From contig JAMCRV010000013.1 in assembly GCA_023381555.1 (NCBI GenBank), forward strand, positions 1 through 39,054: a DNA stretch of 39,054 nt, given 5' to 3'. This DNA is from Chloroflexota bacterium. GTDB taxonomy: Bacteria > Chloroflexota > UBA4733. Each line of letters opens with the position of its first letter. Position 1 is the stretch's first letter. Both the position numbers and the translations under genes were made by a program. Positions 7,982 to 24,196 of the stretch are shown in pieces. The notes beneath the pieces are model-generated. The model searched no databases and was not told where the DNA came from. It saw only the letters and a list, made by a program, of their open reading frames with translations.

Positions 7982-8556
7982 AGTCCAGCGCACCACAATG
8001 CTTCGATGGCCTCACCGCAGAGAAGGTGGTCCTCATCGTCGTTGACGTTCAGGATCGTCTCATGCCAGTGATTCACGCCGCCAGTGAGGTCATCGCAGGA
8101 TGTCGTCGAGCGATCCGTGGCTGCGGTGTTCTCCAGATTCCCATTGTACTGACCGAGCAGTATCCGGTCGGGCTCGGCCATACGGTCGAACCCGTGCGTG
8201 AGGTGCTGGGCGATATCTCTCCTATCGAGAAGCTCGACTTCGGATGTTTCACTTGCGACGACTTTCGAGACCAGCTTGAAGAGCTCAATCGACCTGTTGT
8301 GGCGATCTGTGGCGTTGAAGCGCACATCTGTGTCTATCAGACGGCCCTGCAAGCACAGCTGCTGGGCTACCAGGTGCTACTCCTCGAAGATGCTATTGGT
8401 GCGAGAACGCGCTCAGCTCGCGAAGTGGGATTGAGAGCTGCCTATGTCGACGGAGCGCGCCCATCGCACAGCGAGATGCTCTTGTATCAGCTTCAAGCCA
8501 GAGCTGGCACACGAGAATTCAGAGATCTCCTGAAGATTGTCAAAGAAGAGCAGTAG
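7978..8556 (+). CDS. Isochorismatase-family cysteine hydrolase
   Basis: 192 residues in the alpha/beta hydrolase-like fold shared by isochorismatases, nicotinamidases and N-carbamoyl amidases. The catalytic triad is visible: Asp23 in VVDVQDRL, Lys85 in IEKLDFGCF and Cys118 in GVEAHICVYQTA. The stretch EQYPVGLGHT is typical of the isochorismatase-domain hydrolases often found without pathway context. ATG 7978 forms an ATGA overlap with the preceding VOC gene; a GTG at 7960 would extend it inside that gene. No siderophore or NAD genes lie nearby, so the substrate stays open. Confidence 0.9.
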   Translation: MKSSAPQCFDGLTAEKVVLIVVDVQDRLMPVIHAASEVIAGCRRAIRGCGVLQIPIVLTEQYPVGLGHTVEPVREVLGDISPIEKLDFGCFTCDDFRDQLEELNRPVVAICGVEAHICVYQTALQAQLLGYQVLLLEDAIGARTRSAREVGLRAAYVDGARPSHSEMLLYQLQARAGTREFRDLLKIVKEEQ

Positions 8557-8580
8557 TACAGCGAAGCGCCGCCCCACACG

Positions 8581-9732
8581 TCAGTACAGCCGGTACGGCT
8601 TGACCAGCGGTCCGGCGATTGGCGCAATATAGCCCATGAACGCATCCGCTACGTCGTAGCGATCGCGTACGATGAAGTGATCATCGAGAGCCCGGGTTAC
8701 GTTGGCGATAGTATCGAGCGGCTGCAATCCGTAGTTGATGCTGTACGGTGCGGAAGATCGGCGCTGGAGCGTGACCATATACCCCGACTTGCCTGCCTGG
8801 GCGGCCGTCACGGCCTCTCGCCCCGCCTGGCGGGCCTCCGCAACGTCGATCGATGAGCGCGCGAATGATGCTGCTCGCTGAATGTACCCGAGAATGTCAC
8901 TGTTTGGGGTGCTAGAGAGCCCTAGGCGCTGTTGTGTGAACTCTGCCAGATGCCGTCCGATGCCACCCAGACGCACGTGTCCAAAGGCATCCACGATGCC
9001 CAGGTTCGCGCTCCCCTCAGGAAGCTCGAAGCCCTCGGCGACTGCCACGATGCAGTGGCCAAACAACTTCAGAGCGTGATCGACTCCTGAGATGAAGCGA
9101 TCCTCATCCCAATCATGTTCCGGGAGCATGATGAGATGAGGTGCTGCACCATCTTCGTCACGTGCCAGCCGGCTCGCCGCGGCGAGCCAGCCGGCGTGAC
9201 GGCCCATGATCTCCAGAAAGTAGACGCGCCGCATCGCCCGCGCATCCAAGCCTACGTCGCGAACGACCATGGCGACGTATCTTGCTGCACTGGGATATCC
9301 AGGGCAGTGGTCGGTAAACGGAAGATCATTGTCGATCGTCTTAGGCACCCCGAGAACTTGAAGCGGTAAGCCTCGCTGGACGGCTACTCGGGCGAGTTGA
9401 TCAGCAGTGTCCATGCTGTCATTACCACCAATGTAAATGAAGGTCTTGATCCCTCGCTCCTGGAAGGCGTAGACGATGCGATCGTATTCCGCCGGCTGGA
9501 CTTTGTAACGAATACTTCCCAAAGCCGCTGAAGCGGTATCAGCTAGTGCATCGGTGTCGACATTCGTGAGATCGATGACATCGTCGTTGAGCGCTCCTTG
9601 AATCCCGTAACGAAGTCCTAAGACCTGGCTACCAGCAGCACGCGCGGTCTCAATCACGCCCGCGAGGCTGGCATTGATGACGGCAGTGGGGCCACCAGAC
9701 TGCCCAACCGCAACGGTACCCAGATCAGACAT
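8581..9732 (-). CDS. 6-phosphofructokinase, PPi-type motifs
   Basis: Phosphorylates fructose 6-phosphate in glycolysis, or runs reversibly when PPi-dependent. The 383-residue protein shows the PfkA fold motifs AVGQSGGPTAVINASLAG (residues 6-23), the phosphate-donor loop GGNDSMDTA, the catalytic PKTIDNDL, and MGRHAGWLA. Lys in PKTIDND, where ATP-dependent bacterial enzymes have Gly (PGTIDND), is the hallmark of the PPi-dependent and related clades, so PPi is the likelier donor. The start at 9732 has AGGAGG seven bases upstream; a frame from 9822 adds 30 Cys- and Arg-rich residues that do not fit the family. The 73-base gap to the upstream ABC gene holds nothing notable. Confidence 0.93.
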   Translation of the reverse strand: MSDLGTVAVGQSGGPTAVINASLAGVIETARAAGSQVLGLRYGIQGALNDDVIDLTNVDTDALADTASAALGSIRYKVQPAEYDRIVYAFQERGIKTFIYIGGNDSMDTADQLARVAVQRGLPLQVLGVPKTIDNDLPFTDHCPGYPSAARYVAMVVRDVGLDARAMRRVYFLEIMGRHAGWLAAASRLARDEDGAAPHLIMLPEHDWDEDRFISGVDHALKLFGHCIVAVAEGFELPEGSANLGIVDAFGHVRLGGIGRHLAEFTQQRLGLSSTPNSDILGYIQRAASFARSSIDVAEARQAGREAVTAAQAGKSGYMVTLQRRSSAPYSINYGLQPLDTIANVTRALDDHFIVRDRYDVADAFMGYIAPIAGPLVKPYRLY

Positions 9733-9805
9733 GCTCGCCTCCTTGGTCTTATTGTTATCACAACAATAGCGCACACAGGGCGAGCGGTCCAGCCGTAAAC
9801 TGTCA

Positions 9806-10591
9806 CTACACGAGCTGCACAAGCCGTCCGTCTTGGATCTCGTAGGTGATGTGGGCTATCTCGTTGATGGTCGGATCGTGTGTCGCGACTATCACGGTGA
9901 CTCCGTGATCAACGACGATCTTGCGAAAGAGGCGTAAGATCTGGAGTCCGGTCACACTGTCAAGCTCGCCGGTCGGCTCGTCAGCCAAGATGATCAGTGG
10001 ATTGTTGGCAAGCGCACGAGCGATGGCAACACGCTGCTGCTGTCCACCGGAGAGCTCAAATGGACGGTGGTCGAGGCGGTGTCCTAAGCCAATGAGCTCC
10101 AATAGGTCGCGGCTCCTCCGATCACGGACAGCCGCCGGTAAACCAGCGATGCGCATGGCCAGATCGACGTTTTCTCGAGCCGAGAGCACCGGAAAGAGCG
10201 CATAAGACTGGAAGACAAAGGACATTTTCGATCGGCGTAGCAGAGTCGCTTCCCGATCAGTGAGTGAGCTGATGGTCTGTCCTTCGATACGGACTGATCC
10301 GGCCGTGGGTCGATCCAAGCCGCCGATGATGTTGAGCAACGTGGTCTTGCCAGAGCCTGATCGCCCACGTAGTGCGACCATTTGTCCGGCTTCAACACTC
10401 AGGGTGATCCCTGTGAGCGCTGGCACGTCATTCCCGTGAAACCGATAGATGCGTGTCACATCACGCACGTCAATGATGGGACCGTCATACGTGCTTCGCT
10501 CCAGCGGTGCCAGGATGTCTGCAATGTCTGTCGGAACCGACTGTGTCCGTGTTCCACTACGTCGCAGCTGAGGCAATCGCAGCCGGATCAC
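9806..10591 (-). CDS. ABC transporter ATPase, MacB/LolD type (second ATPase of exporter)
   Basis: A 261-residue nucleotide-binding subunit. Walker A is GRSGSGKTT (76-84), the signature LSGGQQQR (180-187), Walker B IILADEP (200-206) and the H-loop His is in ATHDP. The family pairs with FtsX-like permeases to drive mechanotransmission-type export rather than substrate passage through the permease. An N-terminal extension of about 38 residues, rich in Arg, precedes the usual ATPase start ([14 protein letters not shown]). The gene overlaps the upstream ATPase gene by ATGA (10588-10591). The two ATPases differ clearly, so a heterodimer with one site for each half of the permease is plausible. Confidence 0.92.
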
Positions 10592-11514
10592 TGAGGCCTC
10601 CGTTGTGGAGTCTTTCCACCTTCGTCGACGGGGCGGATCTCGATCTTGCCGTCAGTGACTTCGAGCTGAACCTTCCGGTGAATGTCGAGGCGCTCCATCA
10701 TCTCCCTTGGAAGCTGTAGTCGCCCCGCATTGTCAAGGACGACGAATTCCTCGTGTGTGCTCCCAAAGTCTAGTGGATCGTCAAGGTTGACGTCAGTGCG
10801 CCGGAGACTCTCTGTGCTCGTCTTGCCATCACGAATGGAAACCACCCGATCAACGCGCGACGTCACCGTCCGATCGTGAGTAACGATCATCACAGTAGTG
10901 GCATAGCTCTGAACCAGGCGGCGAAAGATCTCGAAGATGAGATGTGCCGCCGCCGTATCGACGGACCCAGTCGGCTCGTCCGCGAGGAGTAGGGGAGGGT
11001 TGTTGGCGAGCGCCACGGCGATGGCAACACGCTGCTGCTGACCTCCAGACATCTGCAAGGGCAGATGGTGCATCCTGTCCGCCAGTCCTACCTGCTCCAG
11101 GAGTTCTTGAGCCCAAGCACGGCGCTTCCGCGGTGACGCACCGTAAATGATCATCGGCACCTCGACGTTCTGTAATGCCGTCAGGTAGGGAATGAGATTC
11201 CGGGATGTCTGTTGCCACACAAAGCCGACAACCTCCCGCTTGTAGCGTACGAGAGTCCGCTCAGGAATCTTGAGGAGGTTGTAACCGGCGACCATCGCGC
11301 TTCCCGCAGATGGCCGATCAAGTCCACCAAGCACGTTCAGCAGGGTCGTCTTGCCCGAACCGGAGTTGCCGACAATGGCCATGAGCTCTCCTCGCTGGAC
11401 GGTCAGATCGAGCCCCTGCAAGGCCATGGCTTCGAGATCTTGCACCTTGTAGATCTTGACCAGGTTTTCGCACGTCACCAAAGGTTCATCGTTGGCGAGA
11501 TCGAGCCTGCTCAC
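10588..11514 (-). CDS. ABC transporter ATPase with C-terminal AbrB/SpoVT-like domain
   Basis: 308 residues. Residues 1-235 are a MacB/LolD-type ATPase: Walker A GNSGSGKTT (49-57), signature MSGGQQQR (155-162), Walker B LLLADEP (175-181), H-loop H213. After a linker (about 236-254), residues 256-296 match the AbrB/MazE/SpoVT swapped-hairpin domain, with FVVLDNAGRLQLPREMMERL followed by a short strand and KIEIRPV; compare the family pattern VDxxGRVxIPxxxRxxLGI...DGxIxIxPx. The tail is basic (TPQRRPQ). Such domains bind DNA as dimers or tetramers, so the protein may couple exporter state to gene control or use the domain only to oligomerise. It overlaps the permease gene upstream (11511-11514) and the next ATPase downstream by four bases each. 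Confidence 0.9.
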   Translation of the reverse strand: MSRLDLANDEPLVTCENLVKIYKVQDLEAMALQGLDLTVQRGELMAIVGNSGSGKTTLLNVLGGLDRPSAGSAMVAGYNLLKIPERTLVRYKREVVGFVWQQTSRNLIPYLTALQNVEVPMIIYGASPRKRRAWAQELLEQVGLADRMHHLPLQMSGGQQQRVAIAVALANNPPLLLADEPTGSVDTAAAHLIFEIFRRLVQSYATTVMIVTHDRTVTSRVDRVVSIRDGKTSTESLRRTDVNLDDPLDFGSTHEEFVVLDNAGRLQLPREMMERLDIHRKVQLEVTDGKIEIRPVDEGGKTPQRRPQ

Positions 11515-14456
11515 CCTTGCTCCTCCCCCAACTTGGTTGCTTCATAGATTCTCATTCGAAGCAGCATGCCAATCATCACAGGCAGCGCCAAAATGAGCAT
11601 GATTGCCAGAACCGTGTACAGCTTGAATACCTGATCCCACGGCGTATGCACCAGGAAAGGAGGAACGTTGGCGTGGCTGTCCAGATCGATGTGCAAGAAC
11701 GGGATGAACAAAGAGCTTGCATAGCGCCCGATAACCGTACCGAGACCCACGCCCAGGAATATGAGGAAGAGTTGCTCGAAGCCCAGCATAGCTACCAAGC
11801 CCCATACCGATAGACCGATTGCCCGCATGATGCCGAACTGCTGCATTCGCCGTTGATAACTCAGGAAAGAATAGAGTAAGAAGCCCATTACCGTAAGCAA
11901 CGTCGCCACCAGGAAGCCCACGGTCAGCGTTCCAAAGAGTCCAGTGGTCTCGGGAAGACTCCGCGCTTTGAAGATCTCCGACTGTGTATCCGTAACTTCA
12001 TAGATAGGATACTCTGGCAGGTTTGCAAGCTCATTGCGCACCATTGTCGGCGATGCACCTGGAGCGAGCTTGAGCAGCACCGTCCACGGCTGCTGACCCT
12101 CTATGCCCAGGACGTAGTCAATATTGACAAGGAAGAAGTCGCCATCTTGGGGGTAGACCGTAGGCCAGACGTTGACGGTCCCCTTCAGCACGAGAGGAAT
12201 AGTCGTGACCGGAGTAGTGTTTCCCCCGACGGTGACGAGGATCGTCTGTCCTGGACTCAGATGATTCTTACTCATGAAGGAGCTGCTTACGACGACAGCA
12301 TCATCTTCAGACCGGAGCATCGATAGGACGTCATTTTCGGTCTCGGGAGCATTAAGGCCATGCCGGTACCAACCATAGGAGGCGTACGTGTACGGGTCGA
12401 TCGCCACCAGCTTTACCGTGCCGCTCGAATGGCCAGCCGTAGTGACGACGGTTGCTTTGGAATCCACCAACATCCGTGTGGCTCCCAGGATCCCTTTCAG
12501 GCCCTGATAGCGCTGAATGGGCTCCATATTCCACACCTGATGCACCTGGTCATACTCCCCCCGCTCCAAGAACGTGAGGTCGGCGCCATTCTGGTAGTAG
12601 AGATGATCAGAGACGTTCTGATCCAGCGTCTGCGCCATAGAAGCGCTGAAAATACCCAGACTCATCGTTAGGGTGACCAGCAACACGAGACGCGTGTACT
12701 GGCTTGGCGTCCGGCTGATCTGGCGAAAAGCCAGGAGCATCCAGAGCGGAGCGACCCGGTGGCTCAGTCGGGCAACAGCCTCCGAGAGAATCGGAAACAC
12801 GCGCATACCAACAAGTGCAAGGGCAAACATGAAGAAGGCAGGTACCAGCAACAACACAGGATCCTGGACGGCGGTGCCGCTCTGGCTGATCGCTAGCAGC
12901 GACCCATTCTGTTGCAGCAGCTTGTAGCCATATATGGCCACACCAAGAACGGCAAAATCGAGGAAGTAGCGCTGCCAGAATGGCTTTCGCGAACTGCGCG
13001 CGACTTCAGCCTTGTAACTGATGATCGTATAGCGTGCCGCTGCTGCCGCAGGAAGCAACAGGGCAAAGAATGAGAGTCCGACAGCTGCGAGCACATAACG
13101 ATATGTGTCGGATGAAAGCCGGACGGGAAGTAGTCCCCTATTCACGAAGACGAGGAACGTGTAGGTGAATCCGATGAACTGCGCTACCAGACCACCTATT
13201 AGCGGCCCGAGAATAAGGGCGATGGCGCCAAAAAAACCTCCCTCCACAACGTAGATGCCGAGAACTTGAATGTTACTGGCGCCACGGCTCTTCAGTACCG
13301 CGATTTCGTTTCGCTGGCGGTCGACCAGCATCGTCGAAGCGAGCAGAATATAGTAGAGCACGATGGCGAGTGTGGGAACGGACAGCGCGAACAAGAGGAT
13401 CTTGAGGAAGTACGAATCTGTCTCGAATTGCTCGAGCACTTTGACTGGCGAGATATCGAGAGTAACCCCGCTCATCAACGAGGACGCCGTTGCGGTTAGC
13501 TGCTGTGAGCCGCTAATCACCTGAGCAGCATTAGTAGAATGAATATCGTGCTGGTTGAAGATAAAGAACCAGTAGTATTCATACTCGGCATTCGGGTTTA
13601 CTTTAAGGACACCATTGAAATAGTTCTGTTCTGGTACAAGAACGTAGTCATTAAATGTGTCTGGGCGGTAGAACCAGTAAGGCTCATTGGGATTCTTTGG
13701 TCGCCAGGTGCCGACAATACGAACCTTGATCGGGACCGCTTGGAAAGCGCCTTGATTCGCAAAGGTCACTACATCGCCCACATTGATCAAATACTTTTCG
13801 GCTCCAGCCTGAGTCATGAGCCCTTCAACGTTGTGCTGGCTATCGAATACGTGGTCAGGGAATTTGCCCTGGGTAATCACAATGTGTTGCTGCAGGTCGC
13901 TGAGGAAGCCGATAGCGAGATAGTTCTTGAACTGGTTGCCATTCGCTACTGTCCGTTGCCCGAGAGCATACACAGGGAGCTTGTCGGTTGCTCCGTAGCG
14001 CACCCCTTGTTGCAAGGGAAGATCCACGGTACTCGGGCCATTCTTCTCCAGGTAGTTGTTCGCTGCCCAGTATTGCGACACCGGCGGTGGAGGTGTCGCG
14101 TTGCTTGGCGTTGAATTGGGACTGTTTGAATTGAAAACCCAGTGAAAGAGCAGGCTTGCCGGTGGCTGAGCTTGATCAGTCTGACTCTGCAAGCTCTCAT
14201 GGAGCAGCTTCTCCGAGATGCCGTCAGCGTACAGTGGAATAGCGGACACGAGCGCTACACTGATCACGAGGCCTAGGGTGGTTGCTGCGACAAGACGAGC
14301 GTTCGCGCGGGCACGCTCAAGCACCATGACCAGTACGGAGGCAGCGTTACCGAAAATCCCCACGCCCAGCAACGCCAAGAGCCTACCGGCCGTGCGGATC
14401 CCCGTATGCAGGAGCGCTCCCGACCGTTGGGGGAAGGTGCCGCTACGGACTCCCAA
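11511..14456 (-). CDS. Large FtsX-family ABC permease (MacB-like, two-repeat)
   Basis: 981 residues. A hydrophobic N-terminal region (about 24-46 and 58-77) is followed by a long extracytoplasmic region, a first FtsX core with three spans at about 350-480 (FLKILLFALSVPTLAIVLYY onward, containing NEIAVLKSRGAS), further spans and a second extracytoplasmic region, then a second FtsX core at about 835-965 (containing FGIMRAIGLSVWGLVAMLG). This doubled FtsX plan resembles LolCE-type or DUF-containing permeases of Gram-positive and Chloroflexota exporters rather than the four-span MacB. The start is a TTG at 14456 with GGGAG six bases upstream; an in-frame TGA just before it rules out longer forms. 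It lies 101 bases after the adaptor gene and overlaps the ATPase gene. Substrate is unknown. Confidence 0.92.
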   Translation of the reverse strand: MGVRSGTFPQRSGALLHTGIRTAGRLLALLGVGIFGNAASVLVMVLERARANARLVAATTLGLVISVALVSAIPLYADGISEKLLHESLQSQTDQAQPPASLLFHWVFNSNSPNSTPSNATPPPPVSQYWAANNYLEKNGPSTVDLPLQQGVRYGATDKLPVYALGQRTVANGNQFKNYLAIGFLSDLQQHIVITQGKFPDHVFDSQHNVEGLMTQAGAEKYLINVGDVVTFANQGAFQAVPIKVRIVGTWRPKNPNEPYWFYRPDTFNDYVLVPEQNYFNGVLKVNPNAEYEYYWFFIFNQHDIHSTNAAQVISGSQQLTATASSLMSGVTLDISPVKVLEQFETDSYFLKILLFALSVPTLAIVLYYILLASTMLVDRQRNEIAVLKSRGASNIQVLGIYVVEGGFFGAIALILGPLIGGLVAQFIGFTYTFLVFVNRGLLPVRLSSDTYRYVLAAVGLSFFALLLPAAAAARYTIISYKAEVARSSRKPFWQRYFLDFAVLGVAIYGYKLLQQNGSLLAISQSGTAVQDPVLLLVPAFFMFALALVGMRVFPILSEAVARLSHRVAPLWMLLAFRQISRTPSQYTRLVLLVTLTMSLGIFSASMAQTLDQNVSDHLYYQNGADLTFLERGEYDQVHQVWNMEPIQRYQGLKGILGATRMLVDSKATVVTTAGHSSGTVKLVAIDPYTYASYGWYRHGLNAPETENDVLSMLRSEDDAVVVSSSFMSKNHLSPGQTILVTVGGNTTPVTTIPLVLKGTVNVWPTVYPQDGDFFLVNIDYVLGIEGQQPWTVLLKLAPGASPTMVRNELANLPEYPIYEVTDTQSEIFKARSLPETTGLFGTLTVGFLVATLLTVMGFLLYSFLSYQRRMQQFGIMRAIGLSVWGLVAMLGFEQLFLIFLGVGLGTVIGRYASSLFIPFLHIDLDSHANVPPFLVHTPWDQVFKLYTVLAIMLILALPVMIGMLLRMRIYEATKLGEEQG

Positions 14457-14557: not shown

Positions 14558-16645
14558 CTAAATGTTGCGTGCAAAGACACGCTGCCCTTCTTTGAGACCG
14601 GAGACCACTTCCGTCTCTTGGTCATTTTGGACGCCGATCTGAATGTCCACCGGTTGCTGCCTGCCACCTTCATCGAGCAACACGAAGGTCCGGCCATTGA
14701 TGGTGTTGACAGCACCCGTCGGGATGAGCAGAACGTTGTCTTTTCGCTGAATAACGATCGTGACGCTGGCCAGCTGACCAATCTCAGCTCCTGGTCCCGG
14801 CCACTGCGGCATGATACGTGGTGATTGGTCTATAGCCGTTCCTGGAGGAGGCGTGGAACTCTGGCTCGATGAACCGGTCTGATCGGGCGAGCTTGACGAG
14901 CTTGTCGAGGCAGCGCTGACTGTGGGTAGAGCGGAGACTGCCCCTTCGAACTTCTTTCCGGGGAAGATACTCATCGTGATTGTAGCCTTCTGTCCGACCG
15001 CGACCTGAGTGAGCTGAGACTGCGGCACACTCACCGCCAGCTCGAGCTGAGTCGGATTCGCCACGGTGATCACTGCTGTATATGCCGCCACCTGATCACC
15101 CGGCTGACCCTGAGCCGCCACGACGATTCCATTGAACGGAGCGACGAGCTCCATCTGATCGAGTTCGTCGTTGTCTTGAGCGAGCTGTAACTGTGCTTGG
15201 TCGACCTTCTTCTGATAGATCTGCAGGCTAATGCTGTTCGTATTACCTTGGGCGACTTGTTGCTGTGCCTTCTCGAGCTGGGCCTGCGCGACCGTGATTC
15301 CCGCCGTTGCCTGGGCCACACTATCGTTCTGTTCCCGGACGACATTGGGGGAAGGATTGGTCAGGCTGTTATACGCAACCTGGGCCGACTCCAATCCAGC
15401 ACGGGCGCTGGCTACGGCCTGTTGAGCCTGAGCAATCTGGGCGGACGTAGGTGTGAGCGCCGCCTGACTGGCCCTTGCCTGCGCTAGCGCAGCTTGAGCT
15501 GCTTGGACGGCCGCCTGCGCCTGAGCAATATCAGTCGGGGTGGCCCTGGCCACTACCTGCTCATAGGTTACCTGCGCCGCTGTCAGTTGAGCCTGCGCCT
15601 CTTGGAACGTTGCGCTGGCTTGCTGGGCATCCGTCGGCAAGACCGTATTCAAGGTGGCGAGCGTCTGATTGGCCGCATCCAAATTTGTCTGGGCGGTATT
15701 GACCGCAGCATTCGCCGCCTTACAACTGGCAGCACTGGTGCTCTGTCCACACGCGGCGTCACGTTGTGTCTGAACGGCATAGAGCGCATTCTTGGCTTGC
15801 GTTACTGCAAGTTGAGCCTTTTGGACTTGAGCAGGGGTCGGGCCATTTTTGAAGGCCTGGTACTGTGCCTGCGCCGCATCGAAAGCAGCCTGGGCAGCCT
15901 GGAGCTTCGCCTTCGCAAGCGCTACATCCTGTGGCTGCGGTCCTGCTTCGAGCTGAGCCAGATGCTGTTGGGCTATTGTCAACCCAGCCTGAGCAGCTAT
16001 CACTGCCGCCTGTGCTCGCTGTGCGTCAGCAGGGTTTGGTCCCTGTTGGAGCTGTTGGAGCTGCAACGTTGCCGCGTTCAGCGTCGCCGTCGCTGCATCG
16101 ACTGCGGCCTTTGCCTTTGAGACATCGATGCTCGCTGGGTGCAGGAGACCATTGAGCTTGGCCCCGGCCGCATTGTAGCCAGCCTGAGCTGCGGCAAGAT
16201 TTGCCTCGGCCGCCTTGACATCGTCTTTGAGACCCAAGTTCGATGCTGAAAGGGCCGCCTGGGCCTGTTGGAGACTGAGTTTTGCAGCATCCGCAGCAGC
16301 CTGATCGCGCGCGATCTGCTTCCGGAGCGTCGACGTATCCAACGAGGACAGAACCTCGCCCTTTGTTACTTTGTCACCTACCTGCACGTTCATTGCCTGC
16401 AGGTTTCCTGGTACGCGGAAGTAGAGGTCTTGCTGTTGCACAGCGACGACGCGTCCCAGAGCCTTGATGCTGTCCACAATAGAGCCCCGCGTCACAGTGA
16501 AGGTAGGGCGAGGCGGGGGTATGGGTGTCGGTACAGGAGTTGGTGTGGGAGCGACACTCGCCACGATTGGATTCGCACATCCTGCCAGCAGAATGCTACC
16601 GGCGACTACGATCGCCGCTGCGCGCGCTATTCGGAGCCTCAACAC
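14558..16645 (-). CDS. HlyD/MacA-type lipoprotein adaptor with extended helical repeats
   Basis: 695 residues. A signal peptide ends in a lipobox LLAGC (Cys23), so the protein is probably a lipoprotein anchored outside the membrane. A Pro/Thr-rich linker (APTPTPVPTPIPPPRP) leads to a lipoyl-like half (RVPGNLQAMNVQVGDKVTKGEVLSSL). Then come about 400 residues of Ala/Gln-rich heptad helices, the second lipoyl half (LVAPFNGIVVAAQGQPGDQV), a beta-barrel domain (ATITMSIFPGKKFEGAV) and a membrane-proximal domain (VLLIPTGAV...VVSGLKEGQRV). Typical MacA proteins are near 370-400 residues, so the hairpin region is strongly expanded. GTG 16645 is the first start after an in-frame stop; its ribosome site is weak. 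It heads the exporter operon. Confidence 0.92.
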   Translation of the reverse strand: MLRLRIARAAAIVVAGSILLAGCANPIVASVAPTPTPVPTPIPPPRPTFTVTRGSIVDSIKALGRVVAVQQQDLYFRVPGNLQAMNVQVGDKVTKGEVLSSLDTSTLRKQIARDQAAADAAKLSLQQAQAALSASNLGLKDDVKAAEANLAAAQAGYNAAGAKLNGLLHPASIDVSKAKAAVDAATATLNAATLQLQQLQQGPNPADAQRAQAAVIAAQAGLTIAQQHLAQLEAGPQPQDVALAKAKLQAAQAAFDAAQAQYQAFKNGPTPAQVQKAQLAVTQAKNALYAVQTQRDAACGQSTSAASCKAANAAVNTAQTNLDAANQTLATLNTVLPTDAQQASATFQEAQAQLTAAQVTYEQVVARATPTDIAQAQAAVQAAQAALAQARASQAALTPTSAQIAQAQQAVASARAGLESAQVAYNSLTNPSPNVVREQNDSVAQATAGITVAQAQLEKAQQQVAQGNTNSISLQIYQKKVDQAQLQLAQDNDELDQMELVAPFNGIVVAAQGQPGDQVAAYTAVITVANPTQLELAVSVPQSQLTQVAVGQKATITMSIFPGKKFEGAVSALPTVSAASTSSSSSPDQTGSSSQSSTPPPGTAIDQSPRIMPQWPGPGAEIGQLASVTIVIQRKDNVLLIPTGAVNTINGRTFVLLDEGGRQQPVDIQIGVQNDQETEVVSGLKEGQRVFARNI
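15746..16141 (-). repeat. Four tandem 33-residue (99-base) repeats inside the adaptor coiled coil
   Basis: Residues 169-300 of the adaptor divide into four units of exactly 33 residues, starting HPASIDVSKAK (169), GPNPADAQRAQ (202), GPQPQDVALAK (235) and GPTPAQVQKAQ (268). Each opens with a Pro-containing turn and continues as an Ala/Gln-rich helix with heptad spacing. Two weaker copies follow later (ATPTDIAQAQ, LTPTSAQIAQAQ). The last unit ends near Cys299, which with Cys308 flanks a Ser/Thr-rich stretch. The repeat is seen at protein level; DNA identity between units is only partial. Confidence 0.85.
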
Positions 16646-17649: not shown

Positions 17650-18795
17650 TCAAGCTTCTTGCAAAGCACGTTCATAAACTTCCTCGAGCCGGTCGATGAT
17701 GTGCGGCCACGTGAAGAGGCGGCTGATAGCCGCTGTCCCTCTCGCAGAGAGCAGTCCGGCCAGGCGCGAATCCCCTAACACTCTCCCAATCGCGTGTGCC
17801 AGCGCCGTCGCATCACCCGGCTTCACAAGCAAACCTCCACCTGTCGCCGCAACAACACTTCGCACTCCCGGAATGTCGCTAGCGACCACCGGCGTCCCAC
17901 TCGCGAGCGACTCCAACAGCACGACACCAAACGCTTCTCCGCGTGTCACCGACGGCAGAACCGTCACGTCAGCAGCTCGATAGAACACTGGGAGGTCCCT
18001 GTCCTCAACGCTATCTGCAAACGTCACACGCGCAGCGATATCAAGCTCCTGTGCCGCAGTGCGATACGCTGGCAGCAGGTTCCCTCGCCCGACGATGACG
18101 AGCCGGGTCTCGGGCTGTGCGAGAAGCCGGACCGCCTCCAAGAGCACCCGGACACCCTTGAAGAAATGAGCACAGTCGAGCGCCCCTACAAACAGAACGA
18201 TGCGCTCATAAGTGCTCCATCCGAGGGCGGCTCGCTGCTCGGCGCGGTCCCGCATGGGATGAAAGCGCTCGGTGTCGACTCCAAGTGGAAGAGGGATCAC
18301 ACGACTGCTCTGCCGCGATAGCATCGGTGCAAGCCGGCTAGATGCCGCGTAGTCTGCTGAGGTAGGCATGATAACTCTGGCTCTGTGGAGAATAGCTCGA
18401 CCCATGGTCGCGTGATGTGCCAGTACGATCACGTTGGTGATACCAGGCAAGGCAACGTCCTGGTGATAGGTGACGACGTACGGGATATGCCGCATCACTG
18501 CTCCCAACCAGGCACAATCCCCACCTCCGTAGAACGGGTAGTGAAGGTGGAGAAGGTCAGGCTTATCCATCCATAGCTGCTGGAGGATGAGTGCTGCATT
18601 CCCATAGACAAGCTGGGGGGCGAAGCGCACTACCCGCGGCGTCTCACACTCGATGACAGTATGACCAGAGTAAGCAACGGTGTAGACAGCGACGTCATGG
18701 CCACGATGCATGAGCACGGTAGCCTGCTCGCGACAAACCCTCCCAGTACCACCGTAGTAGGGCGGATATGTCGCCGTGACGTGCGCGATCTTCAA
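17650..18795 (-). CDS. GT4-type glycosyltransferase
   Basis: About 381 residues with the GT-B fold of family 4. The N-terminal acceptor domain has HVTATYPPYYGGTGR and an LLHLHYPFYGGGD stretch. The donor-nucleotide domain has IVLFVGALD, LVIVGRGNL and the EX7E motif EAFGVVLLESLASGTPVV. It is a retaining transferase, probably cytosolic and membrane-associated, adding a sugar to a lipid-linked or surface glycan. Start choice matters. ATG 18807 has no ribosome site, whereas TTG 18795 has GGAGG five bases upstream and overlaps the preceding stop as TTGA. The ribosome site itself lies in the ATG-initiated codons, so TTG is preferred. It is the last gene of the glycan operon. Confidence 0.91.
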   Translation of the reverse strand: MKIAHVTATYPPYYGGTGRVCREQATVLMHRGHDVAVYTVAYSGHTVIECETPRVVRFAPQLVYGNAALILQQLWMDKPDLLHLHYPFYGGGDCAWLGAVMRHIPYVVTYHQDVALPGITNVIVLAHHATMGRAILHRARVIMPTSADYAASSRLAPMLSRQSSRVIPLPLGVDTERFHPMRDRAEQRAALGWSTYERIVLFVGALDCAHFFKGVRVLLEAVRLLAQPETRLVIVGRGNLLPAYRTAAQELDIAARVTFADSVEDRDLPVFYRAADVTVLPSVTRGEAFGVVLLESLASGTPVVASDIPGVRSVVAATGGGLLVKPGDATALAHAIGRVLGDSRLAGLLSARGTAAISRLFTWPHIIDRLEEVYERALQEA

Positions 18796-19859
18796 GCTCG
18801 CCTCCATAGCGCCATCATCCGCGCCAGTACGTAGGGAATGGCAAAGAACGGTGTCAACATAACCTCGCCAGCAATACCGGCAGTCTTGCCCAGTTGCTGA
18901 CGCAGTAGCACGTGGGGAGAAAGAAGCCTGAGCAATGCCGCATCGCCCACAATTCGAGTGGCAGCAATCTGTGCCCTCTGTTCGAGCACGTGGTGCCGTA
19001 CTTGCCACACGTGCAGATAACTTCCAAGCTTGGCACGCAAGAATGTTGGACCCCGAAGAGCAGAATACACAAGAGCGCTAAGGTCTGCCAGTATCAAGCC
19101 GGGGAGTAGGGTGAACAGCAAACCCCGCGAATAGTGCTTGAAGAGCAGCTTCCAGCGGTTCGCTTCAAGCTCCCCCAGCTTGAAAGGGGTGAAATTCCAA
19201 CGATAGTCGTGCATCGCGATGGCATCCGCAACGCACCAGCACGTCCCACCTTGCTCAATAGCACGTAGTGAGAGATCGGTATCCTCAAGGTACATAAAGA
19301 AGCTCTTATCAAAGCCACCGAGTGCTTGGAAATCTGCTTTGCGGGCAGCAAAGGCGGCCCCTGATACTGCTGGGACGAGATGCCATCCAACGTCGCGTAA
19401 CGACCGGCCAAGCCCCCTGCAATAGGTCAAGAAGGCGTACGTCACGTGATTACCTTGGGTGTTGATGAGACCATTGGGCAAAAGGAGCGTTGGAGTCGCC
19501 AGTGAGAGAGGCGGCAGTGAGTCTAGAGCTCGTGCGAGCTTCTGCAGGCAGTCCGGCTGCACAACGACGTCAGGGTTGACAAAGAAGAGGAAATCTCCAG
19601 AGGCGCATTCGGCCCCCAGATTGTTCCCACCTCCGTAGCCCAGATTCTGACCTGATGACACCAGTTTGACCCGGGACCACTGGTTGGTGAGAGAAAGCAA
19701 GTCAAGATCGCCGCAATTGTCGACGACGATGATCTCGTCATCGCCGGTGAGTGCACGGTCCAGAGCCGCAAGGCACGCCTTAAGCTGTTCTAGGCTCCGC
19801 CAGAAGACAACAACAGCCGACCAGCGCCCTGTCACTCTCTCAGGGCTGACGAAGGTCAT
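18792..19859 (-). CDS. GT2 glycosyltransferase (rhamnosyltransferase-like)
   Basis: 355 residues. The GT-A domain starts SAVVVFWRSLEQLKACL, with the nucleotide-binding IIVVDNCGD, LGYGGGNNLG, the metal site FFVNPDVVVQPDC and the acceptor region GGFDKSFFMYLEDTDLSLR. These are marks of the WbbL/rhamnosyltransferase-like branch of GT2. The C-terminal 110 residues contain hydrophobic stretches (LLFTLLPGLILADLSALVY and VMLTPFFAIPYVLARMM) that probably anchor it to the membrane. It overlaps the upstream GT2 gene by 20 bases and the downstream GT4 gene by four. The exact sugar is not determinable. Confidence 0.9.
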   Translation of the reverse strand: MTFVSPERVTGRWSAVVVFWRSLEQLKACLAALDRALTGDDEIIVVDNCGDLDLLSLTNQWSRVKLVSSGQNLGYGGGNNLGAECASGDFLFFVNPDVVVQPDCLQKLARALDSLPPLSLATPTLLLPNGLINTQGNHVTYAFLTYCRGLGRSLRDVGWHLVPAVSGAAFAARKADFQALGGFDKSFFMYLEDTDLSLRAIEQGGTCWCVADAIAMHDYRWNFTPFKLGELEANRWKLLFKHYSRGLLFTLLPGLILADLSALVYSALRGPTFLRAKLGSYLHVWQVRHHVLEQRAQIAATRIVGDAALLRLLSPHVLLRQQLGKTAGIAGEVMLTPFFAIPYVLARMMALWRRA

Positions 19860-20784
19860 CGATCATCACCCTCAATGCGTGCAGAATGATGCCAACGAGG
19901 GCAAAGAATACCCCAACGATGATGAGCGCCATACTTAATATGGCAAAGCCAACCGCCAGCTGTTCGTTGAGTGCATAGGTGGCCGTGACCTTCACACCCA
20001 AGATCAAGCCGATGATGATGAGTGACGTACCGACCACGCCAAACAGGTAGAGCGGCCGGCGCCGCTCCAGTTGATCGAGGAGCGAGTGCACGATCTGAGT
20101 GCCGTGGCGCACCGGGCTCCGCTTCGCGGGTTCGGCATACACTACGTGAATGGGCACCTCAGTGACTCGTAGGCCCGCTTGATATGCAATGAACTGCATT
20201 TCAGACTCCACAGCGAAGTGTGTGCTCCGAAAGCGCATCTTCTTGATCGCCGCCCGCGAAAAGGCGCGGAAACCGCTCTGAGAGTCAGAAATGGCCACTC
20301 CCGAAGCGACATTGGTCAGCGTGGTGAGGGCATGCTGGCCGAACTGCCGATACGTAGGGATGCGACTCTGCACCCCAGAGAAACGAGTACCCACGACCAT
20401 GTCGGCTTCGTCCCGAAGCACAGGCCCGACGACCTGCGGAATGTCGGCTGGATTATGCTGGCCATCTCCGTCAATAAGTACTAAGCAATCGACTCCTGCT
20501 TCCTCCGCCCAGCGAAATGAGGTGGCGATGCCTGCAGCCTTTCCACGATTACGCTCATGGCGGATGACCGTCGCCCCTGCGGCTTCCGCCACTTCGGCCG
20601 TACGATCCCGAGAGCCATCATCCACAACGACCACGATGCCGGCCACTTTCTTAGCTTTCAGCACCACAGAGCCGATAAACCGATCCTCGTTGTACGAGGG
20701 AATCGCAACTGCCACCACGCCCCGTGGAGGCTCGCCTTCAGGTGACGAAGCGGCATCAGCAGATACAGACATTGTGTCGATCAC
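19840..20784 (-). CDS. GT2 polyprenyl-phosphate glycosyltransferase (dolichol-phosphate mannose synthase-like)
   Basis: 314 residues. The catalytic domain has VAIPSYNEDRFIG, VVVDDGSRDRT, LIDGDGQHNPADIP (metal-binding DxD region), VVGTRFSG and DSQSGFRAFSR, the set seen in dolichol/polyprenyl-phosphate mannose or glucose synthases. Two C-terminal membrane spans (about 240-262 and 275-300) place it at the membrane. It would charge a polyprenyl phosphate with one sugar, which a multi-span transferase such as the DUF2723 protein could then use outside. The GTG at 20784 has GGAGG five bases upstream and overlaps the DUF4012 stop as GTGA. Confidence 0.92.
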   Translation of the reverse strand: MIDTMSVSADAASSPEGEPPRGVVAVAIPSYNEDRFIGSVVLKAKKVAGIVVVVDDGSRDRTAEVAEAAGATVIRHERNRGKAAGIATSFRWAEEAGVDCLVLIDGDGQHNPADIPQVVGPVLRDEADMVVGTRFSGVQSRIPTYRQFGQHALTTLTNVASGVAISDSQSGFRAFSRAAIKKMRFRSTHFAVESEMQFIAYQAGLRVTEVPIHVVYAEPAKRSPVRHGTQIVHSLLDQLERRRPLYLFGVVGTSLIIIGLILGVKVTATYALNEQLAVGFAILSMALIIVGVFFALVGIILHALRVMIDDLRQP

Positions 20785-22784
20785 GAGTACCTCCAGTGCA
20801 ATGTCAGGTGCTCATCCGTGCGCAACCTAGTGTTCAATTGCCACACGCTTGGTGCAATTCGCTTCCAATCCGACGGGGGATTGACGAGGTGCAGCTGCGG
20901 TGCCAGATGCACGTCAACAGTGATAGGATTGGCAACAGTTCCAGGCTGCTTCTGAAGCGTGAGCGCATACTCATTGGTTGCAACCCTCGAAATGTCCGGC
21001 TGGTAGGCGAAGGTCAACGAGCGTGTCTGTCCGGGGTGGACGACGAGATAGGCAGTGAGCTGAGACTTGCCATCAGCGATAACGTAGCCAGGAGTGTCGT
21101 CACTGCCGGTGATCTGCTCCAGGTGAGTGTGTAGGGGAGTGAGCACCCGCACATACGTCGCGAAGATGCCTGTGCCGTTCTGCATGGTATTGGTGCGAAA
21201 GTTATACAACTCACTGTGGAGCTCCTTCCACACGCGTAGCGCACCGAGCTCATTGTAGAGGTTCTGATAGGTAATCGTCAGCGTGTCGCGGGTGACCTGG
21301 CCGTCGGGCCCAATTTCCACGGTGAGATGCTCGGATTCCTTCATCACCGCGGTCATCTTTCCGTATGACACCTGAGTATCCACTACCTCGACGCCATCTC
21401 CTGGTGACGACCATACTGAGCCATCCGCGTGGGCCGCTTTGGCAAAGGCTTCGAGTGATGGATTATTGAAATAGACTTGCAGGTGCTTTTCTTGAATCGA
21501 CGTGACCAAAGCAGCACCGAGCTTGGTGAGGTTAACATTGGCCGGTTGCTCGAGCTTGGCAACCACGGCCCGAACCAGCGCTGAGAGAAAGTCGGTCTTG
21601 TCCATCTCACGCTGCGACGTGATCGAGCCCGACGCGTTGATGTTCTTCCAAAGCTCTGCCAGCAGATTGTCAGCAGAGATCGTCTCAGCATACTGTGGCA
21701 CGTACACGGGGCCGATCGCTCGAAGCAGATCCTGAACGGCGTAGGTGTCCACTGCGATCACGCCGTTGACCTGGACGTGTTGATCTCGTTCAAAGAACTG
21801 TTCCTCGAGCTTGGCTGAGGTAGGAAAGTTTGGCGACCAGTTGGCATCACGGAGGTACCAGGCCGCGATCCCCATGTAGTGCTCGAGCGGGAAGGGCGGC
21901 GTAAGGTGCGGCTGACTCGGTGTCTCGAAGTCGAGAACCCCCCTATAATCGAGCTTGGTGATCTGAGCATTCGAGACATTTACCAGCCCCATACCACCAA
22001 CGAACCCGCCCGTCGCCCGCAGCTCGAACGGATCTTGCCCAAGAACTAGATAGCTCTGACTGTGGTCCATACCAAGTGCTGTCTGGGCGGCGTGAGGCAG
22101 TAGAAGTATCAACGATGTCGCCTGGTCGAGCTCGTTCAACACTGCGTCCTCCTTGGCAATCAGTACGTTCAGCCTTGAAGAGATCGCTGAAAGTTGAGGT
22201 GAGAATCGCTTGCGCTGAGCTACCGCACACGAAAACTGGTCTCGCGCTTGCTTGATCCGATTTTCCTCGTGTTGAAGCACGAACGCTGCATCGTGGAGTG
22301 TTTGCAGCGGTGGCTGACTCTTCGCGATTGCGGAGAGCGATGCGAATACATCAGATACATCAGCAGCACTCGCGGTCAGGCATGCTGTGCCCTGGAGCAA
22401 CGGAGAAGCGCTCTGGAATAGCGGACCCCAGTGAGGTAGGTGCCCCAGAGCGGCAAGGATCGGAGACCACAGTGGCAGCGGGACGACCGCTCGACTCAGG
22501 TCGCTCGTCGCGGATTGGAGCTGGCTGTCAAGGTCTTGCAGCTTTACGGGCTGTTGCAGCAGGAGAGTAGGACTGGCATCAGCAGCTACTCGTCGAAGTG
22601 CAGAAGTCCCACGCCACGTTTCGATTCCTAGGAATACACCAGAGAGCACGTACAGCAAGAGCAGAACGCCAACGCAAGAAGCGAGAACTCGTAGGATGCG
22701 GCGTCGAAGAGCACGCCGTGACACGCGTCGCTGGGCCGCTTCGACCTGCTGACGTAACTGTGCGCGCTGTTCCTCAGTGAGCAT
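20781..22784 (-). CDS. DUF4012 protein (exported, membrane-anchored, uncharacterised)
   Basis: 667 residues. A basic cytoplasmic start (QRRVSRRALRRRILR) precedes one membrane span at about 29-52, and the rest is predicted extracytoplasmic. The DUF4012 hallmark is SYLVLGQDPFELRATGGFVGG near residues 245-262. Other visible features are a mainly helical region at 75-240 and a C-terminal beta-rich part after about 450 (DTLTITYQNLYNEL). Proteins of this family usually lie with glycosyltransferases in Gram-positive and Chloroflexota genomes, as here, and have no established biochemical role to my knowledge. ATG 22784 has GAGG seven bases upstream and lies inside the DUF2723 coding end (11-base overlap). 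Confidence 0.88.
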   Translation of the reverse strand: MLTEEQRAQLRQQVEAAQRRVSRRALRRRILRVLASCVGVLLLLYVLSGVFLGIETWRGTSALRRVAADASPTLLLQQPVKLQDLDSQLQSATSDLSRAVVPLPLWSPILAALGHLPHWGPLFQSASPLLQGTACLTASAADVSDVFASLSAIAKSQPPLQTLHDAAFVLQHEENRIKQARDQFSCAVAQRKRFSPQLSAISSRLNVLIAKEDAVLNELDQATSLILLLPHAAQTALGMDHSQSYLVLGQDPFELRATGGFVGGMGLVNVSNAQITKLDYRGVLDFETPSQPHLTPPFPLEHYMGIAAWYLRDANWSPNFPTSAKLEEQFFERDQHVQVNGVIAVDTYAVQDLLRAIGPVYVPQYAETISADNLLAELWKNINASGSITSQREMDKTDFLSALVRAVVAKLEQPANVNLTKLGAALVTSIQEKHLQVYFNNPSLEAFAKAAHADGSVWSSPGDGVEVVDTQVSYGKMTAVMKESEHLTVEIGPDGQVTRDTLTITYQNLYNELGALRVWKELHSELYNFRTNTMQNGTGIFATYVRVLTPLHTHLEQITGSDDTPGYVIADGKSQLTAYLVVHPGQTRSLTFAYQPDISRVATNEYALTLQKQPGTVANPITVDVHLAPQLHLVNPPSDWKRIAPSVWQLNTRLRTDEHLTLHWRYS

Positions 22785-24138
22785 CGTAACGCCTCACTGC
22801 CAGTTCATAAGCCATAAGGGTCTTTTGGTACCAAGGAAATGCTTGCAGTCGAGTGTCTACGACACGCACGTCTGGGCGAAGCCCCAAGACGAGCTGAGCG
22901 TACCACAAGGCGAATGTCTCTTGGTCCGTTGACGACTGAATGATCGCTCCTGGAGGAGTAGCGGCAAGCAGCTGCCGCACCCATCTGACCTCCTCGGTGT
23001 CTCCGCGCAGCGAGCTGACGTGCACTCCGATCGCCAGACTCCCAACCAAACCAATAGCAATGGCACCACTCCAGATGAATGCCCTGACTCGCCCCCGCTC
23101 CAATCCAGCGACGAGTTGAGCTATCCCCAACCCTGCACAGAGGCTAAGAAACACGACCAAAGGTAATTGATAGTGCTCCACGCCGGCAGCAGCGTAGAAA
23201 GCGGGCAAGGCGATGTAGAGTGGAATGAGGGCAAACCAGGGGCGAAGACGCAAGTCCTTCCAGGTTCCGGCCAGTCCCACGAGCGCCAATGGCCAGCCCA
23301 ACCACGAGAACTGGATTACGAGGTCGTGAATGGAAGCGACAAGGCGCGACAGTGCTAGGGGAACGTCGGACACTAGCAGAAGGTAACGATATTGTGCTCC
23401 CGTCACCGTCCGCCACAGCGCTGAGAGAGTCTCGGGATCTCCCCAGTTCAGTGGTGGATGCGCCCGCGCCCGCAGAACCAAGACGGCGTAGAGCGCGGCA
23501 CCCGGAAGGACAAACGCGAGCGACGCCACCTGAGAGATCCGTGGAAGCTGGTTGCGCCACAACCCGATAAGTGCAGTCGGAATCCCGGTCACATGATTGG
23601 CCATAGTCAGCCCGAGAAGGAGTGTGCTCCAACCAGTGACCGCCTCGTTGATGGCAACAGTGACGACCAGAGACATGAGGAGGGTGTGGAGGGCATAGGT
23701 CTCGGTCACAACAGCAACATTCCACAGTCCTGTTGATGTTCCCAAGGTCAGTCCAGCAACCACCCCTCCGACGAGAGCGACTGTCTGCCCGCCGCTGGCG
23801 CGTAAGAATGCTGCTGTACCAAACGTGACCGTCCCACAGGAGAGAGCTGCTGCAAGGGCGGAAAGCAGCGCCAGGCGTCCTGCTGGATCTCCGACCAGTG
23901 GCAATCTCAGAAATCCCACTGCGAGGAGAAGCCAGAGAGGATACCCTGTGGGATGGGGAACACCAAAGACGAAAGCCGCAGCCGCGAGCTCGGCGCTATC
24001 CGTAGAGTCGTGCTGCCAGGTCACTGTGGGAGCGGCGGTCAAGGCATAGACAATAAAGAAGAGCAGCGTGACAACGGCGCTACTGGCGAGCGTCTGAGCC
24101 CGTGGAGATCGGAACATAAGCCTTGTCTGACTCACCAC
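22774..24138 (-). CDS. DUF2723 membrane protein (GT-C-like glycosyltransferase candidate)
   Basis: About 454 residues with roughly ten membrane spans. The first extracytoplasmic loop carries the family hallmark DSTDSAELAAAAFVFGVPHPTGYPLW, quoted here in parts: DSAELAAAAF and HPTGYPLW. Acidic residues in this loop are where GT-C enzymes, including protein O-mannosyltransferases, bind the lipid-phosphate sugar donor; DUF2723 is related to eukaryotic TMEM260. The role is therefore sugar transfer at the outer face, by inference. GTG 24138 is preferred because AAGG lies seven bases upstream; ATG 24168 has no ribosome site. It is the first gene of the five-gene glycan operon and is divergent from the Nudix gene. 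Confidence 0.88.
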   Translation of the reverse strand: MVSQTRLMFRSPRAQTLASSAVVTLLFFIVYALTAAPTVTWQHDSTDSAELAAAAFVFGVPHPTGYPLWLLLAVGFLRLPLVGDPAGRLALLSALAAALSCGTVTFGTAAFLRASGGQTVALVGGVVAGLTLGTSTGLWNVAVVTETYALHTLLMSLVVTVAINEAVTGWSTLLLGLTMANHVTGIPTALIGLWRNQLPRISQVASLAFVLPGAALYAVLVLRARAHPPLNWGDPETLSALWRTVTGAQYRYLLLVSDVPLALSRLVASIHDLVIQFSWLGWPLALVGLAGTWKDLRLRPWFALIPLYIALPAFYAAAGVEHYQLPLVVFLSLCAGLGIAQLVAGLERGRVRAFIWSGAIAIGLVGSLAIGVHVSSLRGDTEEVRWVRQLLAATPPGAIIQSSTDQETFALWYAQLVLGLRPDVRVVDTRLQAFPWYQKTLMAYELAVRRYDAH

Positions 24139-24196
24139 GTACTCACCTTCGCAGCTCCAAATCAGCATGGTACGTTAGCGTCGGAGCAAACGCTGT

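Follow-up and report, generated by a model that had tools for sequence, protein, structure and literature searches.

In the 39,054-nucleotide window analyzed here (the whole stretch of Chloroflexota DNA), an HlyD/MacA-type adaptor probably forms a long, jointed hairpin with a disulfide-closed tip, carrying a MacB/FtsX-type exporter through a thick monoderm wall that lacks TolC. In homologues of this protein, helix-breaking joints follow each other in the same order of spacings up both arms of the hairpin. Such a mirrored ladder is a ruler of adaptor length that can be read from sequence, and it shows adaptor length evolving in paired quanta. It also makes the idea of wall spanning testable, species by species, by comparing predicted reach with envelope thickness, and it puts a modular design principle for coiled coils on offer.

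The adaptor (Table 1) scores above the cut-offs for HlyD_3 and HlyD_D23 (Pfam) and RND_mfp (NCBIfam; 112.5 versus 94.9). As is typical of the HlyD/MacA family, its lipoyl domain is split by an inserted helical hairpin, and MacA matches the sequence on either side of it. The best solved relative is MacA from Actinobacillus. The protein falls below the equivalog cut-offs for both MacA (49.5 versus 342; PRK11578) and YbhG (105.5 versus 393; PRK03598) and, judged by these NCBIfam models, is an equivalog of neither. Past the strand region of the beta-barrel comes a Ser-rich insert and then PPPG (residues about 578-605, window 14831-14914), which resembles in kind a Ser/Gly-rich stretch of Actinobacillus MacA. 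The source metagenome-assembled genome belongs to a small Chloroflexota class with three genomes represented here, and a scan of genome contigs recovered only three relatives.

Table 1. Features of the exporter genes and of the adaptor, in window coordinates
Feature	Position	Strand	Basis
Second ABC ATPase, MacB/LolD type	9806..10591	minus	Pfam, NCBIfam
ABC ATPase, LolD/MacB type	10588..11514	minus	Pfam, NCBIfam
Partner permease, 981 aa, two FtsX stretches and MacB_PCD	11511..14456	minus	Pfam
HlyD/MacA-type adaptor, 695 aa, GTG start	14558..16645	minus	ORF; Pfam; NCBIfam
Signal sequence with lipobox LLAGC (residues 19-23), Cys23 the predicted lipid anchor	16577..16645	minus	Sequence reading
N-terminal beta strand region and first lipoyl half, residues 48-104	16334..16504	minus	MacA 4dk0/5nik homology
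Rising arm of helical hairpin, residues 105-298	15752..16333	minus	AF2 helices; joints at heights 66, 99, 132, 165
Degenerate base joint, rising arm, SNLGLKDD, residues 134-142	16220..16246	minus	Indel site in L011 (VITPQD there)
Joint 1, rising arm, LLHPASID	16124..16147	minus	Unit start; AF2 break; height 66
Joint 2, rising arm, QGPNPAD	16025..16045	minus	PSSM score 19.7; height 99
Joint 3, rising arm, AGPQPQD	15926..15946	minus	PSSM score 22.2; height 132
Joint 4, rising arm, NGPTPAQ	15827..15847	minus	PSSM score 25.3; height 165
Hairpin tip, Cys299-Cys308 loop CGQSTSAASC	15722..15751	minus	Helical-domain midpoint; Cys pair conserved in homologues
Falling arm of helical hairpin, residues 309-499	15149..15721	minus	AF2 helices
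Joint 4', falling arm, NTVLPTDA, faces joint 4	15626..15649	minus	Weak PSSM score, 2.4; AF2 break; height 167 vs 165
Joint 3', falling arm, RATPTDI, faces joint 3	15530..15550	minus	PSSM score 21.2; height 134 vs 132
Joint 2', falling arm, ALTPTSA, faces joint 2	15440..15460	minus	PSSM score 9.6; height 103 vs 99
Joint 1', falling arm, TNPSPNV, faces joint 1	15341..15361	minus	AF2 break 428/432; height 70 vs 66
Base joint, falling arm, QGNTN	15236..15250	minus	NTN invariant in four relatives; AF2 break 465/468
Second lipoyl half, beta-barrel, Ser-rich insert, membrane-proximal domain	14561..15148	minus	Pfam, NCBIfam, MacA 4dk0 match 468-691

Downstream of the adaptor lie a permease gene and two ATPase genes, so that, as in MacAB-TolC systems, a MacB-like permease and ATPase are found in one operon with it. 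The gene content suggests a fused-permease, two-ATPase exporter, which may be heterodimeric. The two LolD/MacB-type ATPases (window 9806-11514) differ from each other and have one large two-FtsX permease alongside. At the homologous locus L016, ORFs of matching size follow the adaptor, and at L015 a permease-sized ORF does.

An earlier note on this DNA had described four exact 33-residue tandem repeats in the adaptor. The four units are present (starting at residues 169, with HP, and 202, 235 and 268, each with GP), their coordinates on the minus strand agree and their spacing is exactly 33, but the exactness is confined to the spacing, with pairwise identity among the units of 10-14 of 33 residues. 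The note also undercounted. Further breaks occur at about 334-337, 367-370, 398-399 and 431-433, and two weaker ones form a pair near 136-140 and 466-470. Pro-Gly breaks roughly 33 residues apart span the whole helical domain of ~398 residues (about 105-500). Self-similarity in this domain reaches z = 4.5-4.9 at lag 33 (99% shuffle maximum about 3.7) and z = 3.4-3.7 at lag 66. Lag 33 recurs in relatives at 76%, 61% and 47% identity (z 6.5, 4.1 and 3.2), the last value falling under its 99% shuffle maximum of 3.9, and for L014, which is a paralogue from the sister species, the highest value is at lag 26 (z 10.2). A check of Pro conservation found the Pro/Gly positions kept in relatives.

In Chloroflexota homologues the breaks carry the motif L..LxxG-P-x-P-x-D-[IV], which we scored with a joint PSSM built up from G-P-x-P-x-D-[ILV] seeds. 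The consensus unit begins G-P-T-P-E-D-I-A-x-A-Q-A-x-V-x-x-A-Q-A-x-L..., with I/L/V at each seventh residue and Ala three residues after, a pattern that fits close antiparallel packing. A Gly at a helix end acts as a helix stop, and where the following helix begins, T/N-P-x-D forms an N-terminal capping box. Joints are 26, 33 or 40 residues apart, that is, 7n+5; among spacings of up to 45 residues, 177 of 209 are exactly 7n+5 and 204 of 209 are within one. Repeat number, which the earlier note had proposed to compare among close relatives, does vary, and the units occur as facing pairs. In 16 homologues, subtracting both arms' units from the helical length leaves an almost constant remainder (126-137). 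Relatives encoded on plasmids in other phyla (Azospirillum, Deinococcus, Ruegeria, Arthrobacter, Priestia) show no joints. The largest ladder of the set, in L034 and L038 (G072 contig C296), has eight joints per arm in a 635-residue helical domain.

The relationship between the two arms was examined by counting joint heights from the lipoyl halves at both ends of the helical domain. The set comprised 43 non-redundant homologues drawn from many families of the Chloroflexota, of which the 40 with reliable anchors were used; three were left out for misplaced anchors, and two of these, when re-anchored, obey the mirror rule. Joints of the falling arm lie 5 residues higher than their counterparts in the rising arm: a rising height h is matched by a falling height h+5 for 109 of 150 joints, versus 0-4 at offsets of one or less and of ten or more. 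The mirror can be followed joint by joint in L094 (rising 28, 61, 87; falling 33, 66, 92), L041 with its corrected anchor (28, 68, 94; 33, 73, 99), L071 (28, 54, 80, 113, 138, 171, 204; 33, 59, 85, 118, 143, 176, 208, 240) and L034 (28, 53, 78, 104, 130, 163, 195, 227; 33, 59, 85, 111, 137, 170, 203, 235).

Because uniform ladders mirror trivially, the test was restricted to ladders of mixed spacing. The order of spacings from the base up is identical in both arms in all 15 of these, with 54 of 63 joints matched, a value reached by none of 20,000 shuffles of the falling-arm order (mean 37.9). Since homologues are related, each distinct ladder type was counted once, and the probability is then about 2e-6. 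L071 (26,26,33,25,33,33) and L094 (33,26) defy any simple gradient from base to tip. The mirrored ladders therefore place the arms in register, pairing rung by rung, and the reading that they would pair along their full length as one jointed hairpin is well supported. The ladder of the window protein itself is nearly uniform, and for this reason its own symmetry is weak evidence and the argument rests on the homologues; the antiparallel pair of arms expected of the family is found in their mirrored ladders, and only indirectly in the window protein.

The two Cys residues that the earlier note had singled out in a Cys-poor protein, Cys299 and Cys308, straddle the midpoint of the helical domain (302.5-303.5), and the sole other Cys is Cys23 of the lipobox. 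Helical-domain Cys occurs in 22 of 40 homologues, each of which has exactly two, placed on either side of the midpoint and centred on it to within a few residues (mean offset at most 8.5). The loops between them, 7-29 residues long, abound in Gly, Ser, Pro and Asn. Variable loop length with constant Cys is as expected for a disulfide-closed turn, and a VKOR-family protein is encoded in the same genome. That a disulfide closes the tip, as had been suggested, is thus very plausible, and from the conserved pair we infer a Cys299-Cys308 bond. The tip flanks, [RK]-D-x-x-C and C-x-x-A, are kept in many homologues. The tip motif is common to homologues with differing rung numbers, which favours a tip that would always be distal. 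In L034 and L038, a long Ser/Thr/Gly-rich insert stands in place of the Cys pair.

The adaptor hairpin probably works for the MacB/FtsX-type ABC exporter encoded next to it. It would consist of stacked rungs, each a rising-arm helix lying antiparallel against a falling-arm helix, with the Gly-Pro-x-Pro-x-Asp joints of both arms level with each other. A rung would be as high as a whole number of heptads plus the five-residue joint (26, 33 or 40), and with rung height quantised in this way a lineage could therefore alter its reach by gain, loss or resizing of a facing pair. With the tip shut by the disulfide, six copies might form a tube on the exporter, by analogy with MacA and Spr0693. This tube, about 30 nm long if straight, could take substrate from the membrane across a thick, TolC-less monoderm wall. 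The paired rungs may form an extended rod; mirror pairing alone does not establish that successive rungs are collinear, but collinear rungs are favoured by the unequal neighbouring rungs and by the tip motif being kept across rung numbers.

The alternative to an extended rod is a hairpin whose arms pair rung by rung and whose every joint reverses direction, with the rungs lying side by side in a compact bundle. We consider this unlikely, although it has a precedent in CusB, whose hairpin is doubled over once to give a four-helix bundle (PMC4446572). The helix stop and start signals at the consensus joints would suit such reversals, as would the uniform 33-residue units of the window protein, and the Ala-rich strip opposite the core could pack on the next rung. 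However, adjacent rungs can be unequal, as in L071 (26/33/26), L094 (33/26) and L041 (40/26), and folding back would put the tip alternately near and far, yet the tip motif is kept whatever the rung number.

Structure prediction bears on the same question. The full-length AF2 model (pLDDT 51.8, pTM 0.28), made with a four-sequence alignment, is too weak to read topology from. It places helices at 104-167, 171-199, 204-231, 237-265 and 270-299 in the rising arm and at 304-331, 338-366, 369-394, 400-428, 432-465 and 468-497 in the falling arm. The helix is thus stopped, at low confidence, at each Pro site, in agreement with the earlier suggestion that the breaks are true interruptions; at the degenerate base joint SNLGLKDD it is left unbroken. 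A Foldseek search with the AF2 tip segment (pLDDT 71.6, pTM 0.46) gave no match below E 0.001; most of its best matches (TM 0.43-0.49) are long coiled coils, chemoreceptor hairpins among them, a weak likeness that argues against the folded-back form. The best Foldseek match of the full model, the MukB elbow (E 1.4e-4), can be read only as a coiled coil.

It is improbable that the protein is an ordinary long MacA-like coiled-coil hairpin, its Pro and Gly residues mild kinks of no architectural role and its repeats low-complexity heptads. Changes of hairpin length by heptads, made in both helices, are already known in this family (PMC4446572), and lags 7 and 14 equal lag 33 in strength in the helical domain of the adaptor. 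Against this, the joints are strongly conserved, with over 200 different joints among the homologues against 10 chance hits in 22,269 shuffled residues at a threshold of 5, and the spacings cluster at 7n+5 rather than at multiples of 7. A low-complexity artefact as the source of the repeat was rejected on the rarity of the joint motif in shuffles. Slightly less probable still is the picture in the earlier note, a bundle or an independent zig-zag built of short helices, in which every unit (about 28 helical residues and a turn) packs on the next in the chain. It would account for the regular breaks and the lag-33 similarity but leaves unpredicted the matched-height order of unit lengths in the two halves of all 15 mixed ladders, and was rejected on that ground.

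The jointed hairpin may act without an outer-membrane channel. A TolC-type channel (PF02321), the remaining part of a MacAB-TolC system, was not detected in the source genome (67% complete) or in G002 of the same family, and a weak match in G001 contig C71 (L014) was rejected as the coiled coil of an adaptor. Omp85 was undetected in all 41 genomes searched, most of the others being > 90% complete, and controls were positive in known diderms; absence calls from the source genome are weak by themselves. Within the Chloroflexota, the genus Tepidiforma is reported to be monoderm and to have an S-layer and a periplasm of 40 nm, of which peptidoglycan takes up about 20 nm (PMC10284905).

If straight, the 199 residues of one arm would measure about 30 nm, and the arms of homologues would reach roughly 17-47 nm. 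The Spr0693 pump extends about 15 nm from the membrane with a hairpin of 5.6 nm (PMC5768738), and by analogy a similar assembly with the window hairpin would reach roughly 39 nm. Its closeness to the 40 nm periplasm of Tepidiforma is suggestive only, as the two belong to different classes. The earlier proposal that the adaptor may span a thick cell wall is reasonable. A bolder picture, possible but in our view rather less than probable, is that Chloroflexota build self-sufficient, bamboo-like export tubes from hexamers of jointed hairpins. The nodes would align as rings, rung number and height would be tuned to wall thickness, and the disulfide-locked tip would sit at the wall surface and replace an outer-membrane channel.

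Parts of this design are found in known systems. MacA and Spr0693 share with the window adaptor the lipoyl halves around a helical hairpin, the beta-barrel and the membrane-proximal domain, as well as an FtsX/MacB-type permease and a separate ATPase adjoining, and Spr0693 forms a hexameric tube in an organism without TolC (PMC5768738). They differ in that the window adaptor has a ~398-residue helical domain, four to five facing joint pairs and a tip Cys pair. YbhG of E. coli (HlyD_D23) has one joint per arm (GYRNEEI and GNREQDI), in effect a ladder of a single pair. Its helical domain, in contrast, is about 130 residues long and has no Cys pair, and it works with the transporter YbhFSR in a periplasm bounded by an outer membrane. 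The CusB hairpin is also bent in both arms at one level (PMC4446572), but there a single fold-back gives a short bundle, in an RND metal pump. EmrA and HlyD adaptors have a long antiparallel hairpin, and the window adaptor has sequence and fold matches to EmrA in the PDB, whereas the joint motif was not seen in the inspected alignments to solved relatives.

The very large hairpins of Gram-positive adaptors have been hard to rationalise if hairpins merely bridge to an outer-membrane channel (PMC4446572). We found no description of joints or of a mirrored ladder in the literature searched, a coverage outside which most subscription papers and preprints fall. As far as that literature goes, three features are new: the long ladder of conserved joints mirrored in the two arms, the spacing quantum of 7n+5 and the Cys pair at the midpoint.

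The exporter genes have neighbours on the same strand on both sides. Upstream, a surface-glycan type cluster (window 17650-24168) adjoins them, encoding a GT4-like and two GT2 glycosyltransferases, a DUF4012 protein and a TMEM260-like O-mannosyltransferase. After them comes a pyrophosphate-dependent phosphofructokinase gene (window 8581-9822), and L016 has an ORF (8423-9574, 383 aa) similar to it in size and place.
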